Source: Odiellus spinosus (Eukaryota; Arthropoda; Arachnida; Opiliones; Phalangiidae). From it: DNA of 64,000 nt. The notes beneath the pieces were generated by a model. It was not told where the DNA came from. It worked only from the letters and a program-made list of their open reading frames with translations, and ran no database searches. Below are positions 6,137 through 64,000 of this stretch, one piece after another; position 1 is the first letter of the stretch, and each line of letters begins with the position of its first letter. The DNA is taken from positions 13,484,601-13,548,600 of the forward strand of contig OY987237.1 of NCBI GenBank assembly GCA_963920705.1, read 5' to 3'. Position numbers and translations under genes: made by a program.

Positions 6137-8845
6137 ATTTAATCCCTTTCTTTCTTGCCGCTTTTCACTTTATCGCTTCAAAGTTTAGTAAGACACCGAA
6201 GGCTTGAAAAGGGAGGCCAGTTTAGAGCCATTAGGATCTCAACAAACGTTTAGACATTAATTTCGCTAAGCCTAACTGCGTGTTTATAACAACTATAGCG
6301 CTAAAGGTTCGCGAATTATCTAGTTTTAGGTCTCAGTTGGGAATAACGTACGGAGATTCGTGGCAGACCAGCATTCGATGATGGTATACGGCGAAACAGT
6401 ATGGTATAGGAGTTATCCAATAAAGGGGAGCTAGCTGCCTGCGTGGGAATATGGGAATATTCAATATTACGGATCAAATCATCCCGAAATGGGAAAATTC
6501 GAAATCGTCTCTGAAGTCCGAATCAGTTCAAAATTTGAATACGGGTTATACGATAGGCAGTATTCAATCGATTACATCAGCTTCTTAGACGTAGAGGGAA
6601 ACCTAACTACGATATTGATGTAATTTCAGAATGAATTTAAAATCTGTTAGCCAAGTGGAACGTTCCGGAAACGTTACAGGGTGTCTTCGTGACGAGATTG
6701 CGTGGATATAGACGTTGTCTCGGCTAGTATAGCTCGATATACAAGTAGTTAAATATGCAAAACGGCGTACGCGTATATAGTAGGAATTGGATGAAGTTTA
6801 AACCGTGTATTAAGAGAGGATATAGATAAATGGCAGCCTTTATAGTTGGCCCCAAAAGTTCAAAAATTATACATTTTCTTCTATATTATCTTTTATGCTT
6901 AAGATTTCAAGGATTTTGGAATAATTTGCAGTTCTCGGTCTTCCAATAAAACCCTTAAAATCTTTCTGAGAAGGTGGTGGATTTTCTTAGCTTTGTTTTA
7001 GAGAAAATAGCGGTATTATAACGAATGATTATCCAAACTTCATTGACTTCGACTATTTTTTTTAAGCACTTTTATGGAAAAATAGACCCCATGTGGATTA
7101 AAAAACTCAATTTATCATAAAAAAAAGCAGTATTTTGTTGGTAGTAAAACTCTACAAGATATAAAAGAAGAACTTTGATGTACTAAACGTAGAGCTTACA
7201 AGAAAAAAAAAAAAAAAAAAAAAAAAAAACAAGCAACCACTTAAAATCCTCAGTTTATTCAAATTCGTTTTTCAAACTCCCAAATCGAATTAATCGGAAT
7301 TTTTTTTTTTTAGAAGAAGATTCCCTTAAGTTTACTTTAAACAACCGAATTTAAAAGTGATCTAAAATTTCGAATTCGGTTAGGTTAGTTCTTTCAAGAT
7401 ATAAGAACAAGTATTCTATTTTAATCGCAATTTTCGGACCAAATCTGTACGGTAAACAAAACGCTCGACACGAAAGGTATATTTTGTGGCACGCTTAAAA
7501 GATTCAGAAAGATTCTTACTACGAAACTACATATTAAAATGATATAATTTTGGTACTAAGACTGTATTTTTAGCATATATTCTATTCAAACGAAGTTTGA
7601 AAAAAAAAACTATCGGAAAGGTAAGGCGTAATGTTACTCAATGTTAAAACTATATCGAATAAAAGTAGTTTATGAATATGAATATGGGAAATTTGTGGAA
7701 GAAATCGTATTTTTTTGAAACGATAAATCTTTATATAAATACCAACAACTATAGCAAAAAGCGAATATTCAAGAGAAAAAATACTGTTTTTGAGAAAAAC
7801 AAATTACTCAGGCAAAAACTTCGTGCAGCCTCGTCTCTTGGGGACATTATTTTCCAAATATTTTCTCTATTTTTCCCCTCACACAACAAAAATTCCTATT
7901 TTTTTTCCTTCATTTTTTATCTTTAGTTCATTTCATCTTTAAACTTCAGTTTTAAGAAAAGGTAGGCTACCTTTATTTCTCAAGGGACAGTAAGACGTTG
8001 TAAAGGTTGCACATAAACCTGTAGATATTTTACTGTACTATATTAAACTACGTTACTGGATATGTATTTAGCATTGTGAAAAGACTTTAAACGATTACTT
8101 AAAACGTAATATTTGGAGAATTTTATGACTTCAATTGAATGCTTTGTAATCATGCGCTGCGCAACTATTTGAACATTTAAGGAATCAAATTAGGCTTAAT
8201 TAAAAATTAAAACTAAATAAGAATGACATCGGTCCTGACAATGCTAATTAAACCAGTGCATTTTGCAGCATATTTATAAATTTGGTAGTTTCATTAACTA
8301 TTCGTTACCATTTAAAAATAGAAATAACTCAAAATTATTTGACACTACACCTTTAAGTAAACAAAATCATAGAAAGAACAGGTACCGTAGCTTTGTACGA
8401 ACTGTCATTTCAAGAATGAATATTGAATATACTATATCAGTTTATTTCAGTCTAAAATATCAGTATGTATGAAGGTAAATCTACTTATATCTCTAAGTAT
8501 TCTATAGTTTTGTGTACACTAACAATTCCGGTTGATACGGACCTAATCATGTTCGAGTTTTTTGAATGAATTGAGATATCTCTATGCAATGTGAAATACA
8601 GGATATAACAAGATGGTCAAGCCCATAGGAATAGCTAGCCCCTGACATTGTAAAAGAGGCTGAAAGGAATGATTCTATAGCAGGGGTGTGTTATGCAGGC
8701 ATAAACGCTCTTTAAACAATTTGAATGGCGTCTCGAGATTCATTTAAACACGAAGTTGCGGAAATTTCTCGAGCCGACTATATTACCGTGATCGTTTTTA
8801 TGCGATATATTGAAAAAGACGAATATCCCCGCAGTCATTGCATTC
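6137..8845. other. AT-rich DNA with a poly-A tract
   Basis: A 27-base A run lies at 7203-7229. The rest is AT-rich with scattered T runs. Open frames at 7672-7926 and 8263-8472 are Lys/Asn/Phe-rich chance frames. I see no retrotransposon body upstream of the A run that would make it a poly-A tail. Confidence 0.5.
7203..7229. repeat. Poly-A tract (27)
   Basis: Uninterrupted A run. No retrotransposon body was recognised beside it. Confidence 0.95.
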
Positions 8846-9629
8846 AAATCATGTTTTTCAAATCATGTTTTTCAAATCATGTTTTTCAAATCATGTTTTT
8901 CAAATCATGTTTTTCAAATCATGTTTTTCAAATCATGTTTTTCAAATCATGTTTTTCAAATCATGTTTTTCAAATCATGTTTTTCAAATCATGTTTTTCA
9001 AATCATGTTTTTCAAATCATGTTTTTCAAATCATGTTTTTCAAATCATGTTTTTCAAATCATGTTTTTCAAATCATGTTTTTCAAATCATGTTTTTCAAA
9101 TCATGTTTTTCAAATCATGTTTTTCAAATCATGTTTTTCAAATCATGTTTTTCAAATCATGTTTTTCAAATCATGTTTTTCAAATCATGTTTTTCAAATC
9201 ATGTTTTTCAAATCATGTTTTTCAAATCATGTTTTTCAAATCATGTTTTTCAAATCATGTTTTTCAAATCATGTTTTTCAAAACATGTTTTTCAAAACAT
9301 GTTTTTCAAAACATGTTTTTCAAAACATGTTTTTCAAAACATGTTTTTCAAAACATGTTTTTCAAAACATGTTTTTCAAAACATGTTTTTCAAAACATGT
9401 TTTTCAAAACATGTTTTTCAAAACATGTTTTTCAAAACATGTTTTTCAAAACATGTTTTTCAAAACATGTTTTTCAAAACATGTTTTTCAAAACATGTTT
9501 TTCAAAACATGTTTTTCAAAACATGTTTTTCAAAACATGTTTTTCAAAACATGTTTTTCAAAACATGTTTTTCAAAACATGTTTTTCAAAACATGTTTTT
9601 CAAAACATGTTTTTCAAAACATGTTTTTT
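8846..9629. repeat. 14-bp satellite, 56 units in two homogeneous blocks
   Basis: The unit AAATCATGTTTTTC is repeated 31 times without change (8846-9279), then switches to AAAACATGTTTTTC for 25 units (9280-9629; the last unit ends in T instead of C). The only difference is T to A at one position, and the switch is abrupt. In the second block the core AAAACATGTTTT is a perfect 12-bp palindrome; in the first block it is not. Because 14 is not a multiple of three and the unit has no stop in any forward frame, three overlapping frames of about 275-306 codons run through the array. These are artefacts and should not be annotated as genes. Confidence 0.97.
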
Positions 9630-13100: not shown

Positions 13101-13760
13101 AGACTACACTAGAAACTGTAACTCGAATTCGTTACGGGGTTCTAAATTTAGATCATAGAGCATGGTTGAACTATACGACAAAACCCAGAGTTCACTACTA
13201 TTAGGTCATGACATTAGGAGAAAATTGATGAAAAAGAAGTTCCTTAAGATCAGTTTTACAACAGTTACATCTCTAGATGAATTTTAATATTACGTATCAA
13301 TTCGCTTTAGCTTTAGATAGATTGCAAAATTACTATGGGAATATAAATTATAACAATATAAAATTTCGGGTCATCGGGGAAACAGCTATGTAGATGGGAA
13401 AATCCCATGCCTCTATTAAACCTTGCTAAATAACTAGTTATGGTAATTAGAACGGGTTATACCGTAAAGGGTGCTATGATAATTAGACTGTAAACCAACC
13501 ACGCATCGATTGAAAGACGTAGCTATAGGATTTTCCTTCGTTAATTTTAACTTTCTTTCAAGTCCCAGAGGTCCCGAGCGACTGAATTTAAATGAAGCTT
13601 TTAACCATAGGGTTTTTTTAAGAAAATATATTGATAATACCATAAGTTAGGTACTACTTTCCTACAATAAATAGTTCTATTATAATAGGGAGACAGCAGA
13701 GAGCCAAGGGGGAAAGAAAACCTGACGTCATGGAACCCCCTTACTGGGGGAGCACTTGTA
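10128..13760. other. Intergenic DNA, partly GC-richer, poly-C tract
   Basis: A 14-base C run lies at 11405-11418, and 11090-11780 is somewhat GC-richer than its surroundings. A 121-codon minus-strand frame at 11432-11797 shows no domain I recognise. A T run is at 10511-10523. Near 13045-13065 CATTTCATTCTTCC followed by TTTAA resembles a solo right end of the T1 TTAA elements. Nothing else was recognised. Confidence 0.45.
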
Positions 13761-14142
13761 AGGGCGAATACTGGAACTCCATCACCTAAGGGGATGACAC
13801 CGAGATGAGAGATAGAAACCTCTGACGTATCAATGTCTACCTTGCTTGCTCTCTATATTGTACTAATCGAATTCTCATGGTTTTTAAAAATAGGTACTTA
13901 GCGACGCATCGCTGTCGTTTTTAGAATTATATTCGGAAGGAAAAACGAATATGAAGGGCGAATACTGGAACTCCATCACTAAGGGGATGACACCGAGGTG
14001 AGAGATAGAAACCTCTGATGTATCAATGTCTACCTTGCTTACTCTCTATATTGCACTAATCTAATTCTCATGGTTTTTAAAAATAGGTACTTAGCGACGC
14101 ATCGCGGTCGTTTTTAGAATTATATTCGGAAGGAAAAACGAT
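13761..14142. repeat. 194-bp tandem duplication
   Basis: Two adjacent units (13761-13954 and 13955-14142) start AGGGCGAATACTGGAACTCC and end GGAAGGAAAAACGA. They differ by a handful of substitutions (for example GAGATGAGAG against GAGGTGAGAG, GCTGTCG against GCGGTCG) and small indels such as CACCTAAG against CACTAAG. This is a fairly young local duplication of unknown content with no open frame of note. Confidence 0.95.
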
Positions 14143-15827: not shown

Positions 15828-16163
15828 CAGAAGTCGATGAAACCGTCCTTTGAAGTCTATTACTCCCGGGTCTTGTCTACCCCTCTCTGTATGGGTTAGT
15901 TTCAAAAAGCGCGATTCGTACGCCTCCTAACGGTAGATATTTTCGGAGCGAGAGTTCGTCGAGCGAATATCTCTAGCAGCCTAGAGTTCGTCAAAAAAAC
16001 GTCGTCGTTTGTGGAGAGAGAGAATTTCCAATTTTGCGTAGACTGGGGGTATGAAGTAGGACCCCTCCGATCTCTTAAAATTGGGAATTTTACCCATACA
16101 GAGAGGAGCGCTATATGGAACATTAGAGTAGTAGACTTCAAAGGAGGGTTTCATCGGCTTCTG
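15828..16163 (+). mobile_element. M1 MITE copy 3 (pure beta)
   Basis: Full length, 336 bp. The flanking 7-mers are TGTTTAG (15821-15827) and TTTTTAG (16164-16170), one mismatch. It is beta at all eight diagnostic sites: TCGATG in the left terminus, TTAGTTTC, GATATTTTC, TCAAAAAAACG, TTGCGTAG, GGGTATGAAG, CTCCGATCTC (here TCTCTTAA after it) and ATTAGAG. The right flank TTTTTAGTAAAA is shared with the right flank of copy 13. Confidence 0.93.
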
Positions 16164-21622: not shown

Positions 21623-22088
21623 ACGCGGATACACACAGACCTGTTTTTACGCGTTTCACGCTCGTGAACTCATAGAAGTACCATTAGCACGCGCGAGCGA
21701 GGTGCAAACCACTCTAGAAAAATTTTGTACACCTGATTCCAGATTCATTTGATTGTCAGTGATTCCGAATCAATTCGCGTGATTCCGAATTGATTCGTGA
21801 TTCGCGTGATTCCGAATCGATTCGCGTGATTCCGTATCGATTCTCGTGATTCCGAATCGATTCGCGTGATTCCGAATCGATTCGCGTGATTCCGTATCGA
21901 TTCTCCTGATTCCGAATCGATTCGCGTGATTCCGAATCGATTCGCGTGATTCCGTATCGATTCTCCTGATTCCGAATCGATTCGCGTGATTCCATTTAGT
22001 TTGTACACCTGATTCCAAGAGTGGTTTGCCCATTGCCCCTCGCGCGTGACCGTGAAAAGCGTGAAAATAGGTCTGTGTGAATCCGGCT
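21623..22088. mobile_element. TTA-flanked inverted-repeat element with internal minisatellite
   Basis: TTA lies on both sides (21620-21622 and 22089-22091). The arms are imperfect inverted repeats of about 110 bp: ACGCGGATACACACAGACCT on the left matches AGCCGGATTCACACAGACCT read inward from the right. Both continue through a TTTTTACGCGTTTCACG-like stretch to GCAAACCACTCT. Between the arms is a 20-bp minisatellite. A 3-bp TWA duplication is characteristic of PIF/Harbinger elements, so that superfamily is a guess. There is no transposase. Confidence 0.75.
21761..21993. repeat. 20-bp minisatellite with 60-bp higher order
   Basis: From 21808 the 20-bp unit GATTCCGAATCGATTCGCGT (a) and variants with GATTCCGTATCGATTCTC (b) follow in the order a b a a b a a b a, a 60-bp higher-order period. 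Degenerate units precede it from 21761. TTTGTACACCTGATTCCA flanks the array on both sides. Minus-strand frames rich in ESRESIRNHANRFG repeats are artefacts of the array. Confidence 0.93.
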
Positions 22089-26443: not shown

Positions 26444-27173
26444 TTAAATTGCATGAAAAATTGAGTGATTTTTGAAACAAATCCGAAATTTCTTCGTGCC
26501 TAATTTCGCAATTTTAATAATTAACCTCGAATTTTAAGGCATATCTAAATCGATTAAAAATATTTTGTTTCCAGAGTCTATACCCTTTAATCCAGTAAAC
26601 TCTCTAAGAGACTAAGAGACAATTTAAAACGAGTAAAAAGATAAAAGCTGATATAACGACGTCATTACGTTAGTTTCTTCGCTTTACACTCCACTGCTTC
26701 CAAGTCGGTTGACAGATTTCTCTTCTAAAACCCAAGCGCACCATTTATCGTCTTACTAATTGACTATTCGCCACAGTTCCTGACAAGTACCGCAACCAAT
26801 TAAGAATGCTTTTTTAAAGAAAAAAAAAAAAAAATTGATAAATACCCACTATTAAGAAGAATATTCTGGAACAAAGAGGCGTAAATCGGTGGCGTTGCGA
26901 AAAATCTTAAAAAGCAAAATGTGTACCTATTTATAACACGCTAGCGCGAGGCCTTCTTCGCTTTAGCCGATATTTAGTTCATAATTTAAACGGTAGGGCT
27001 ATTACCAAAAATGACCGAGCAATAACCGCACCACCTATACGCTTAAAGGTGAAGCTAGCCGCGCCATATTTCATCTTCCTTATCAAAGAGATGGTAAAAT
27101 GAAAATTTTAAACTTGAAATTCGACCGCGTACGATGTTAGGTTAATTAGAAATCAGTTAAATATGGATGATTA

Positions 27174-27512
27174 CAGAAGCCGATGAAACCCCCATTTGAA
27201 GTCTACTACTCTAATGTTCCATATAGCGCTCCTCTCTGTATGGGTAAAATTCCCAATTTAACGAGATCGGAGGGGTCCTACTTCATATCCCCCTGTCTAC
27301 GCAAAATTGGAAATTCTCTCTCTCCACAAACGACGACCTTTTTTTGGACGAACTCCAAGGCTGCTGGAGATATTCGCTCGACGAACTCCCGCTCCGAAAA
27401 CATCTACCGTTAGGAGGCGTACGAATCGCGCCTTTTGAGAATAACCCATACAGAGAGGGGTAGACAAGACCCGGGAGTAATAGACTTCAAAGGAGGGTTT
27501 CATCAGCTTCTG
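27174..27512 (-). mobile_element. M1 MITE copy 7, beta/alpha recombinant without duplication
   Basis: Full length, 339 bp, but the flanking 7-mers ATGATTA (left) and ATTCTAG (right) do not match. Its left half is beta (CTAATGTTCC, GAGATCGGAGG, TATCCCC, ACGCAAAATT) and its right half is alpha (TTTGGACG, GAAAACATCTACC, TTTTGAGAATAACC). The switch lies between about 27300 and 27345. The 20 bases after it are identical to those after copy 20, which has ATTCTAG on both sides. Copy 7 therefore looks like the product of ectopic recombination or conversion between a beta copy and a copy-20-like alpha locus. Confidence 0.94.
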
Positions 27513-27530
27513 ATTCTAGTATGAAAGAGT

Positions 27531-27590
27531 TGTAGAGAGAAAGGATGCTTAAATTTTCTTTGTAGAGAGAAAGGATGCTTAAATTTTCTT
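27531..27590. repeat. 30-bp tandem duplication
   Basis: TGTAGAGAGAAAGGATGCTT followed by AAATTTTCTT occurs twice exactly, immediately right of the flank shared with copy 20. The window ends too soon to tell whether copy 20 has the same duplication. Confidence 0.95.
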
Positions 27591-29968
27591 TCATATCATG
27601 TCAATAATCCAAAATATTAAAATTATGATTAACTTGAATTTTAACTCGACTTAGCCCTTATAATCCTCGATGCGTTTAGATAATTATGTACATAATTTAA
27701 CTACAACAAATTCGCGTTAATTGATTATTTAATATATTTATAATAAACCTTTGTAATCCCAAATAATTAAAAATGTTTAATATTTAAATTTAAGACCAAT
27801 TTCGAGCCTCCGAACAATCTGTTCAAGTATTTAATATTGACCAATAAGAACGCGTGATTCCTAAAATTCAAAATTTGCTATGCTCGTATAACGTCCTAGT
27901 AAGTTTTCATATATATTTTTTTTAAATATAAATGTAGCCTATAATTTTAAGGGGGTATAAGGATATTAATGAAAAAACGTTTTTTTTTCACCTTCCCTTC
28001 AATGTTACGGTCATATGGAGAAAGGGTGTAAGCACGCCGCACCAAAGCCAATCTCTTAGGTTGCCCGAGCCTGGTCCAGATTAATGAACTTCATCATCGG
28101 TGATAGCCTCGATTAAGGCTTAAATAGCCGTTATTTACGCGCGTTCCCCGAAGGGGTATTATCAAAGGAACGCTTTGGCCCGGCAATAGCCGAACGCGAA
28201 AGCGTCGAGCGATGACAATGGGGCGAGCGCCCACCTCCTTCCCTTCGAGCTATAGTATTCGCCGCTTTCTTTTGGGAGGCACTCATGCAAATGAAGCCTT
28301 CTCGTTGTACACATTTTCTCCCGACCGCACCATCAGCCATTTACGTTAAAAGAACCGTTCGGACACTTTATCGAGAGAAAAGCGGGGGGAGCTAGGACAG
28401 GACGACCAAAAAATGTTGAAATATTTTTCAAGAGCCTTCGTGCGAGATCTAAATATTGTTTTTAAAAGTCAAATATGATCGTTTTCGCACCATTCAACCT
28501 CCTCCTAAAGTTCCTGTTGAAAGGTACAGCGTTTCACACAGCGGAATTTGCGCTGTTCAAGCCGTTTCTTGCGAGATTTAAACTTCATAAATTCTAAATG
28601 CAAGCTATAAGTGGCTTCTTGCTAGCGGAAACGGAATCGGAATCAAACTGGATATGTTCAGCACCTTCTTTAATTATTTAAGATCCATTGCAAATTACCC
28701 CGAAAAAAACCTGAGAACAACTCCTTTTCTTTTTAGGCGAAAAACGGTATTTTATTTTCCGTCCCAATAATTCCGCGAATTGAAATCCGTCTAGATCATT
28801 TTATATCGCGAATATAAGGAAGGAGCTTTTTTTACGGGCGGGGCTCGCATTATGTAAACACAAACCAGTAACCATTTATTCTAAGCTGCTATAAGCTTAT
28901 TTTTTAAAAGCGCTAAGACCATTTTGGTGGGCGCTTACAATCGCTTAGAACTAGGAGATTATTTATATCGCCTCGCGACTTTAACGCAATACTTTCGGCG
29001 TTTATGTGAAGGCCTTTAAAATGAGTAGATGGGCTCATTCTCTTCCCTATAGCTCCAGTAAGATTTCGCGTACAAGCAAATATATTCCAAGAGAAATCAA
29101 GCTTTAATAGGAGATAGTATGTATATTTATTTAATCCTGTATCAGAACCACTTCCTAAAACTACTTTTATTCCTCTACGGGGTTTAATATTACGTATCAT
29201 TACGCCTCACCTTTACCTCAATAGTTTAAAATAACTCTCGAACAATAGGAAGGGATATTTTTACTCGTTGAAAGAAGGTATAAAATACGGAGTCTTTATC
29301 GCGTTGTTAAGAGATGGGTTTTGTGAGAAGAGATATAAGGAAAAAGATAAAAATATCAATTTGGTAAATGTATAAGATATACATTCATATTTTTGTAGAA
29401 GAAAACCAGCCTATAGGGATATAATTCAATTAACAACTGAAAAATGTTTCCATTTCTTAAGCGCGTTGAGTATATTTTAGTGACAAAGTTTTGAAGTTAA
29501 ATTTGGAGTAAGACTGGAGTTTTTATTTTTTATTTTATCATCAGTTTAACATTATGTTACGTACTTCATATCTCATATAATCTTAAAAGTATTTTGCGAA
29601 GACTTCGACAAGGAACATATATAATCGCTGAGATTATCTCTAGACTGAATTAAGATAATCCTGGTCGAAGAGAAAGAGTTTAATCCTAAATACCTAATTA
29701 TTAACTTTCTGACAACCAAATTTTTTAAAAACGTTGCCATATGAGGAGAGAAAGTGAATCAAATAATGTAAAATTATAGGCTGGTTTAATCTGATAGGCC
29801 AGATTATCTCCTCTATGATACTGAAATCATTTTGCTGAAATTCAAAACATTTACCAAATGAAGAAGGAAACGTTTTTGGGTTATTATGATTGGTCAGATT
29901 TTTTCCTTTCAATTAAATCAGTTTGTTAAAATTAAAATCAAATCCAACTTTTAAATACATAAATGCGA
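27591..29968. other. Intergenic DNA, nothing recognised
   Basis: A GC-richer patch at about 28020-28420 includes a short chance frame on the minus strand (28131-28340). A 95-codon minus-strand frame at 28913-29200 shows no domain. No repeats or RNA genes were recognised. Confidence 0.45.
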
Positions 29969-38769: not shown

Positions 38770-39106
38770 CAGAAGCCGATGAAACCCTCCTTTGAAGTCT
38801 ATTACTCCCGGGTCTTGTCTACCCCTCTCTGTATGGGTTATTCTCAAAAGGCGCGATTCGTACGCCTCCTAACGGTAGATGTTTTCGGAGCGGGAGTTCG
38901 TCGAGCGAATATCTCTAGCAGCCTTGGAGTTCGTCCAAAAAACGTCGTCGTTTGTGGAGAGAGAGAATTTCCAATTTTCCGTAGACAGGGGGGATGAAGT
39001 AGGACCCCTCCGATCTCGTAAAATTTGGAATTTTACCCATACAGAGAGGAGCGCTATATGGAACATTGGAGTAGTAGACTTCAAAGGAGGGTTTCATCGG
39101 CTTCTG
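38770..39106 (+). mobile_element. M1 MITE copy 13 (alpha with one beta site)
   Basis: Full length, 337 bp, perfect duplication TTTTTAG at 38763-38769 and 39107-39113. Alpha through GGGGATGAAG, then beta CTCCGATCTC, then alpha ATTGGAG. AAAATTTGGAATTTT is private. The right flank TTTTTAGTAAAA is shared with copy 3. Confidence 0.95.
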
Positions 39107-63634: not shown

Positions 63635-63641
63635 ATTCTAG

Positions 63642-63980
63642 CTGAAGCCGATGAAACCCTCCTTTGAAGTCTACTACTCCAATGTTCCATATAGCGCTCC
63701 TCTCTGTATGGGTAAAATTCCCAATTTTACGAGTTAGAAGGGGTCCTACTTCATCCCCCCTGTCTACGGAAAATTGGAAATTCTCTTTCTCTCCACAAAC
63801 GACGACGTTTTTTGGACGAACTCCAAGGCTGCTAGAGATATTCGCTCGACGAACTCCCGCTCCGAAAACATCTACCGTTAGGAGGCGTATGGATCGCGCC
63901 TTTTGAGAATAACCCATACAGAGAGGGTTAGACAAGACCTGGGAGTAATAGACTTCAAAGGAGGGTTTCATCGGCTTCTG
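63642..63980 (-). mobile_element. M1 MITE copy 20 (alpha)
   Basis: Full length, 339 bp, perfect duplication ATTCTAG at 63635-63641 and 63981-63987. The first bases are CTGAAG instead of CAGAAG, a change in the third-from-end dinucleotide that normally matters for transposase cleavage. It has two extra bases in the GA-rich tract (CTCTTTCTCTCC), plus GTATGGATCG, GAGGGTTAG and GACCTGGG. The 20 bases to its right, up to the window end, equal those right of copy 7. Confidence 0.95.
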
Positions 63981-64000
63981 ATTCTAGTATGAAAGAGTTG

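Follow-up and report, generated by a model that had tools for sequence, protein, structure and literature searches.

Copy 7, a complete MITE, is followed on its right side by 49 bp that are identical to the right flank of another member of the same family, copy 20; and we consider it likely that copy 7 was an ordinary insertion that subsequently had its right junction reconstructed through break repair, in the course of which the end of copy 20 was copied together with the flank adjoining it. The 49-bp identity occurs at two loci only, ends abruptly, and passes into a short tandem repeat at copy 7, and the target duplications of the donor are intact. These features were observed in a window of 64,000 nucleotides, by which we mean the whole stretch of DNA analyzed (C15:13484601-13548600 of a genome of 443 Mb in 286 contigs, in which the enclosing contig measures 17.2 Mb); positions to the left of the window are given as negative numbers, and the features are compiled in Table 1.

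The right junction of copy 7 and its donor

The initial annotation had described copy 7 as lacking a target duplication, and this was confirmed, since the right-hand heptamer ATTCTAG (27513-27519) differs from the left-hand ATGATTA at four of the seven positions, leaving no 7-bp duplication. The further statement that the 20 bases after copy 7 equal those after copy 20 (27513-27532 against 63981-64000) proved correct base for base, and the expectation that this flank might run past the end of the window was borne out: the identity continues for 29 bases more, reaching 27561 and 64029, to give 49 of 49 matching bases, and then stops in abrupt divergence. Its start coincides exactly with the boundary between element and flank. 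A search of the 443 Mb with 27513-27660 returned two candidates, both of which, upon being scored, turned out to be copy 7 itself and the 49 bases flanking copy 20; a chance origin of the match is excluded. Immediate divergence beyond 64000, or the assignment of the 20 bases to a dispersed repeat, had been named in advance as grounds for abandoning the idea of a transfer, and neither occurred; the presence at copy 7 of a flank belonging to the locus of copy 20, about 36 kb away, is supported.

A flank common to two elements could also have arisen had two independent insertions struck the same target within two copies of another repeat, and other copies of this MITE family do sit in dispersed repeats; the 49 bp, however, are present at two places only and are followed straight away by divergence, and we give that account practically no credence. 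An assembly error at 27.5 kb might likewise be suspected, near-identical repeats being prone to poor assembly. Against that suspicion, the window lies within a single contig of 17.2 Mb, composites with intact outer duplications recur elsewhere in the genome, and copies 7 and 20, being 18 substitutions apart, are not one collapsed sequence; such an error is in our judgment very improbable.

We regard the site of copy 20 as the source because ATTCTAG still stands on both sides of that element, whereas copy 7 has no duplication. The right halves of the two copies differ by 6 substitutions, a distance that ranks 57th of 101, with 47 of the 101 copies being closer; and since the right half of copy 7 is no closer to copy 20 than to most others, it does not demonstrate copying from copy 20 within the element. 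At three of the differing positions in that half, copy 20 carries a base that is rare or found in no other copy, and therefore an older transfer, or one that started near the end of the element, would fit.

The relationship between the two loci had originally been read as a crossover or conversion between dispersed copies, of which reading the transfer of a flank stands and the crossover does not. Unequal crossover or another reciprocal exchange between copies 7 and 20 would find a precedent in hybrid duplications, the classical sign of crossover, as in the Galileo inversions (PMC2775673); but only 49 bp of flank are shared, the donor copy is intact on both of its sides, and a reciprocal junction, sought in the genome, was not found. 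A tandem duplication by unequal exchange would, in addition, have left the hybrid to the right of copy 20 instead of to its left, and we thus hold a reciprocal exchange to be highly unlikely. A second locus carrying the left flank of copy 7 beside an intact duplication, as had been proposed, was not encountered either, the sole genome match of 200 bases of that flank being its own locus.

The 30-bp duplication that had been noticed in the right flank of copy 7 is real; it begins inside the patch, and its slip point shares TT, as judged by eye. The 25 bases at 27589-27613, which span the last bases of the repeat and those after it, were found, at two mismatches or fewer genome-wide, at their own locus only. 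The heptamer ATGATTA then recurs at 27625, a recurrence whose chance amounts to 1.4% when calculated from its frequency in 283 kb and to ~4% when calculated from its density in 83 kb; this second occurrence may represent copy 7's own right duplication, an assignment that is suggestive only. For copy 7, we also considered end-bypass (transduction) involving a cryptic end farther downstream and rejected it, for ATGATTA is not found after the 49-bp end or after the 79-bp end.

Table 1. Positions of the elements, duplications and flanking segments at the recipient and donor loci (window coordinates).
Feature	Position	Strand	Remark
Left 7-mer ATGATTA	27167..27173	+	presumed remaining half of the target duplication of copy 7
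Copy 7, complete 339-bp MITE	27174..27512	+	beta-left/alpha-right haplotype
49-bp patch	27513..27561	+	equals right flank of copy 20; opens with copy 20 duplication ATTCTAG
30-bp tandem repeat, 2.1 copies	27530..27591	+	built from the end of the patch
Sequence after patch and repeat	27592..27624	+	native flank or filler; 27589-27613 single in genome
Second ATGATTA	27625..27631	+	112 bp past the element; candidate other half of the duplication of copy 7
Copy 20 left target duplication ATTCTAG	63635..63641	+	
Copy 20, donor-site MITE	63642..63980	+	
Copy 20 right duplication ATTCTAG and start of donor flank	63981..64000	+	shared stretch runs 29 bases beyond the window

Proposed repair and composites elsewhere in the genome

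The rebuilding of copy 7 may be envisaged as follows. The element would have been broken at its right end or close by, through transposase or by accident, and a strand from the break would have invaded the homologous right-hand terminus of copy 20, or of the allele of that site; synthesis would then have continued through the terminus of the element into 49 bp of single-copy donor flank, one slip-back, or stutter, would have generated the 30-bp repeat, and end-joining to copy 7's own side would have completed the repair, with the right target duplication being lost or displaced. We use the term run-off for this form, in which a patch starts at the terminus of an element.

When the flanks of 64 copies in 283 kb were compared outward from the element ends, two shared stretches longer than 14 bases emerged: the 49 bp of copies 7 and 20, and 154 bp common to a minus-strand copy at -94857 and a plus-strand copy at -90353. 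The first of these latter two, 122 kb to the left of copy 7, consists of CTTTTAT, a complete element, the 154-bp patch, a repetition of the element's last 46 bp, and again CTTTTAT. The patch equals the right flank of the oppositely oriented copy, 4.5 kb off, and opens with that copy's duplication CAACAAC; at the point of rejoining, CA is shared. Donor, recipient, entry, exit and the recipient's duplication are all visible here, which makes the case clearer than that of copy 7. Synthesis would have run through the end of the element into the donor flank and then returned to the remaining end of the recipient. No further match to the 154-bp patch was present among the 40 of 812 candidates that were scored. 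End-bypass was rejected in this instance also, since an element-like end, sought in the donor where the patch stops, was not seen; and a Fisher test on the difference between the left and right halves (p 0.007) was set aside, because right halves are generally conserved and other copies match equally.

If run-off is a process, complete ends that are followed, at a distance shorter than one element, by a second end piece are to be expected elsewhere, with patches derived from nearby. A search by structure alone for a complete end, 150-180 bases and a second end returned four places in the genome, as against 0 in the reversed control: the 154-bp case itself, C15:13260385, C6:15555179 and C7:21414729. 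The outer duplications are GTATTAG in the C15 composite and GTTCAGC in the C6 composite. Of the patches in these two, 68 bases each were used as queries, and, among the 40 candidates scored out of 168, each gave one other perfect match on its own contig, of 68 bases at a distance of 10.8 kb for C15 and of 66 bases at 11.1 kb for C6. Patch and donor in the C15 case agree at 97.3% over the first 149 bases and, after a gap of ~34 bases, at 16 of 16. As separate observations on that patch (L066, C15:13260020-13261020), the ~34 bp of donor that it lacks are missing at a CGA microhomology, and it belongs to a dispersed repeat with many relatives of 85-96% identity. In the C7 composite, the element's own 33-bp flank is repeated before a piece of ~165 bp of its own left end; its own allele or sister served as the template, the repeated flank being its own. 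By eye, the rejoining points share TAG in C15, nothing in C6 and ACG in C7, which result gives microhomology in all but one of the four composites with the 150-180 pattern; at copy 7 the corresponding features are TT and the 30-bp repeat.

Intervals of 70-100 bases between the two ends were found at five places (reversed control, 0), and an inspection by eye of strings of 80 letters revealed one place without a patch, one with ~10 bp, and three with foreign stretches. The donors lie on the same chromosome as their patches, at distances of ~36.5, 4.8, 10.8 and ~11 kb. The location of patch starts at the termini of elements is in part built into these results, for the searches either looked outward from the ends or required a complete end. 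An identical donor stretch elsewhere, a donor that is itself unaltered, and copying in one direction—the marks of a repair-mediated duplication—were found at copy 7, in the 154-bp case, and, over 66-68 bases, in the C15 and C6 composites.

The C15 and C6 donor sites (C15:13249735/36 and C6:15544275/76) contain no element at the start of the patch in this assembly. An ordinary copy with the duplication GTCTCGT ends 151 bp before the C15 donor, and no element occurs within 984 bp upstream of the C6 donor. Empty donor sites imply that the insertions in question have disappeared or segregate as polymorphisms, or else that the end of an element became attached directly to an unoccupied target. This last possibility corresponds to a one-ended transposition, in which the transposase would attach one end of the element to a target site close by, with the repair then copying some of the target before it switched back; in that event, the patch would open with the target-site 7-mer, because the 7-mer marks the point of strand transfer. 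The two empty sites favor such a course, as do the donor 7-mers ATTTTAC and ATATTAT, which carry the preferred T at position 2 and A at position 6. The outer preferred bases at those donors, on the contrary, fit by eye in just one of four positions, the donors of copy 7 and of the 154-bp patch hold an element with its own duplication exactly where the patch starts, and the C7 composite (L070) used its own flank. We therefore consider one-ended transposition improbable, and retain repair copying from the end of a resident element as the reading of copy 7.

Only tentatively, and with more doubt than confidence, do we extend that reading to the proposal that run-off provides a MITE family of ~13,000 copies with a permanent means of spreading short pieces of single-copy DNA between loci, the patches constituting an archive of vanished insertions. 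If the proposal were true, the end of each copy would prime repair on a neighbor, synthesis would regularly exit through the terminus, and donor sites now empty would make the patches a record of insertions since lost.

Comparison with known systems

The proposed event at copy 7 belongs to a known kind, namely one-way repair copying with near donors, short lengths and microhomology. Ectopic gap repair induced by P elements, reportedly an experimental, transposase-induced system of Nassif et al. in 1994, resembles it in the use of ectopic sites as repair templates; the cases described here, in contrast, are natural fossils.

The repair-mediated duplications that Pace et al. (2009; PMC2671141) describe have a mean of 162 bp in the proximal class, which class is bounded at 5 kb, and they exhibit microhomologies of 2-9 nt, filler sequence, and donors that are mostly near and on the same chromosome. 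Common to that description and to our cases is the one-way copying of short nearby stretches, of similar lengths, into a transposon at a break. The present cases differ in that the patch beside copy 7 and that of the 154-bp composite start exactly at the border of another copy of the same element, in that the donor of copy 7 lies 36 kb off, and in that three of four donors fall beyond the 5-kb class.

According to Tan et al. (2021; PMC8277862), single-copy Pack-TIRs arise by gap filling, with a bias toward near donors, a median microhomology of 2 bp, and breakpoints skewed toward the interior of the element. The capture of nearby DNA by elements with terminal inverted repeats, the near donors and the microhomology have their counterparts here; the form that we observed consists of a complete end, a patch and a second end piece, and it is the only form that our searches could find. 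For Galileo, of the P superfamily, PMC2775673 and PMC4168063 report 7-bp duplications that are identical in ~89% of the end-preserved copies, and so absent from some, as is also the case in our family; the reciprocal exchange, inversions and exchanged duplications of Galileo nevertheless set it apart from a one-way patch. In our searches of the openly available literature, we found no description of the run-off form, with its patch starting at the element terminus.

These composites preserve, at the level of the sequence, fossils of ectopic break repair that show the recipient, the donor, the length of the patch and the join alike. More of them are recovered by simply searching for a complete element end with a second end piece within a few hundred bases. 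A MITE that lacks a target duplication, or that bears mosaic markers, need not indicate a crossover.

The MITE family, its duplications and mosaics, and the remainder of the window

The 20 copies in the window belong to one MITE family, with ends CAGAAGCC...GGCTTCTG, termini CAGAAG...CTTCTG and, in the 283 kb around the window, computed lengths of 323-344 bp. The elements are short, numerous, inverted at their ends and flanked by a duplication of fixed length, as befits a MITE, and the pattern of their left end gives 12,937 matches genome-wide at two mismatches or fewer. Open frames of up to 147 amino acids run across some copies; to our knowledge, such an element is too short for any known transposase. 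The density of the family, when expressed relative to a genome mean based on the left-end count, which may miss diverged copies, is ~10 times that mean in the window (20 copies in 64 kb) and ~8 times in the 283 kb (64 copies). Between C1:170439 and C1:2624097 we observed 74 exact left-end matches, all on the plus strand, among the 100 places listed, which accumulation may be an artefact. The element was also sought in plasmids, viral contigs and papers, with nothing relevant being found.

In total, 102 copies were examined: the 64 of the contiguous 283 kb (C15:13384601-13667600), and 38 distant ones chosen by their likeness to copy 7. Exact 7-bp duplications flank 72 of the 102, and the target preference deduced from those 72 sites is a loose palindrome with T at position 2 and A at position 6 of the duplication and with T and A three bases outside, each preferred base being present in 71-76% of the sites. 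By analogy, a 7-bp duplication of this composition would be compatible with Galileo (GTANTAC), and the superfamily may be P or hAT; the T at 2 and the A at 6 recall the hAT target consensus nTnnnnAn.

Among the 64 copies, the computed ends are bordered by exact 7-bp duplications in 45 and by duplications with one mismatch in 5. The other 14 comprise two with exact 8-bp duplications, one with an internal deletion but an intact duplication, one composite, two in AT-rich sequence that show a single mismatch when the reading is shifted, and eight without a duplication, copy 7 being one of them. A neighbor's flank is present in two of the 64. Eleven flanks from seven other duplication-less copies (two from the unselected 283 kb and five from the distant sample) were searched genome-wide and produced 11 matches, each being the copy itself. 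Repeats, AT-rich stretches and damaged element ends had been excluded from that query, which exclusion applied to both flanks of -96175, -68104, -78017, 78350, 143873 and L037, to the left flanks of 154687 and L048, and to the right flank of L005. Because the tested flanks of other duplication-less copies found only themselves, run-off explains a minority of the lost duplications, the losses being mostly of other cause.

Two minor observations concern neighboring sequence. A solo remnant of 33 bp, composed of 24 bp of one end and 9 bp of the other, extends from -22458 to -22426 (C15:13462142-13462174) with ACAGTTG on both sides, and is what would remain after an aborted repair or after a deletion within the element. 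Copies 3 (15828-16163) and 13 (38770-39106) have 12 bases in common beside their left ends, including CTAAAAA, which is probably a coincidence in AT-rich targets.

The change from beta to alpha markers within copy 7, which the initial annotation had taken as a sign of exchange, is real, in that this copy has beta at four left markers and alpha at five right ones, but it fails as evidence of exchange. That haplotype is present in nine of the 102 copies, eight of which belong to the 38 picked for their likeness to copy 7, and seven of the nine retain a duplication (five exact, two with one mismatch); the mosaic element was accordingly rejected as proof of exchange. Among the 64 unselected copies, the exact haplotype is that of copy 7 alone, and left/right marker mosaics of some form number nine, seven of them with a duplication. 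Since mosaics are found with duplications, transposition has propagated them, and the presence of one at the locus of copy 7 does not point to an exchange there. An association between the mosaic haplotype and the loss of the duplication received no support (7/32 vs. 9/70; Fisher p 0.25) in this sample, which is biased because the 38 distant copies were selected by likeness to copy 7. The automatic score, moreover, counts -13333 and -94857 as duplication-less; by inspection, the duplication of the former and the outer duplication of the latter are intact.

Within the window, ARAGORN predicted no tRNA, and no Rfam match attained the gathering score. Positions 8843-9628 are occupied by 56 copies of the 14-bp repeat TTCAAATCATGTTT, which array is open in several frames, and further tandem repeats have a 193-bp unit at 13760-14141 and a 60-bp unit at 21799-21993.
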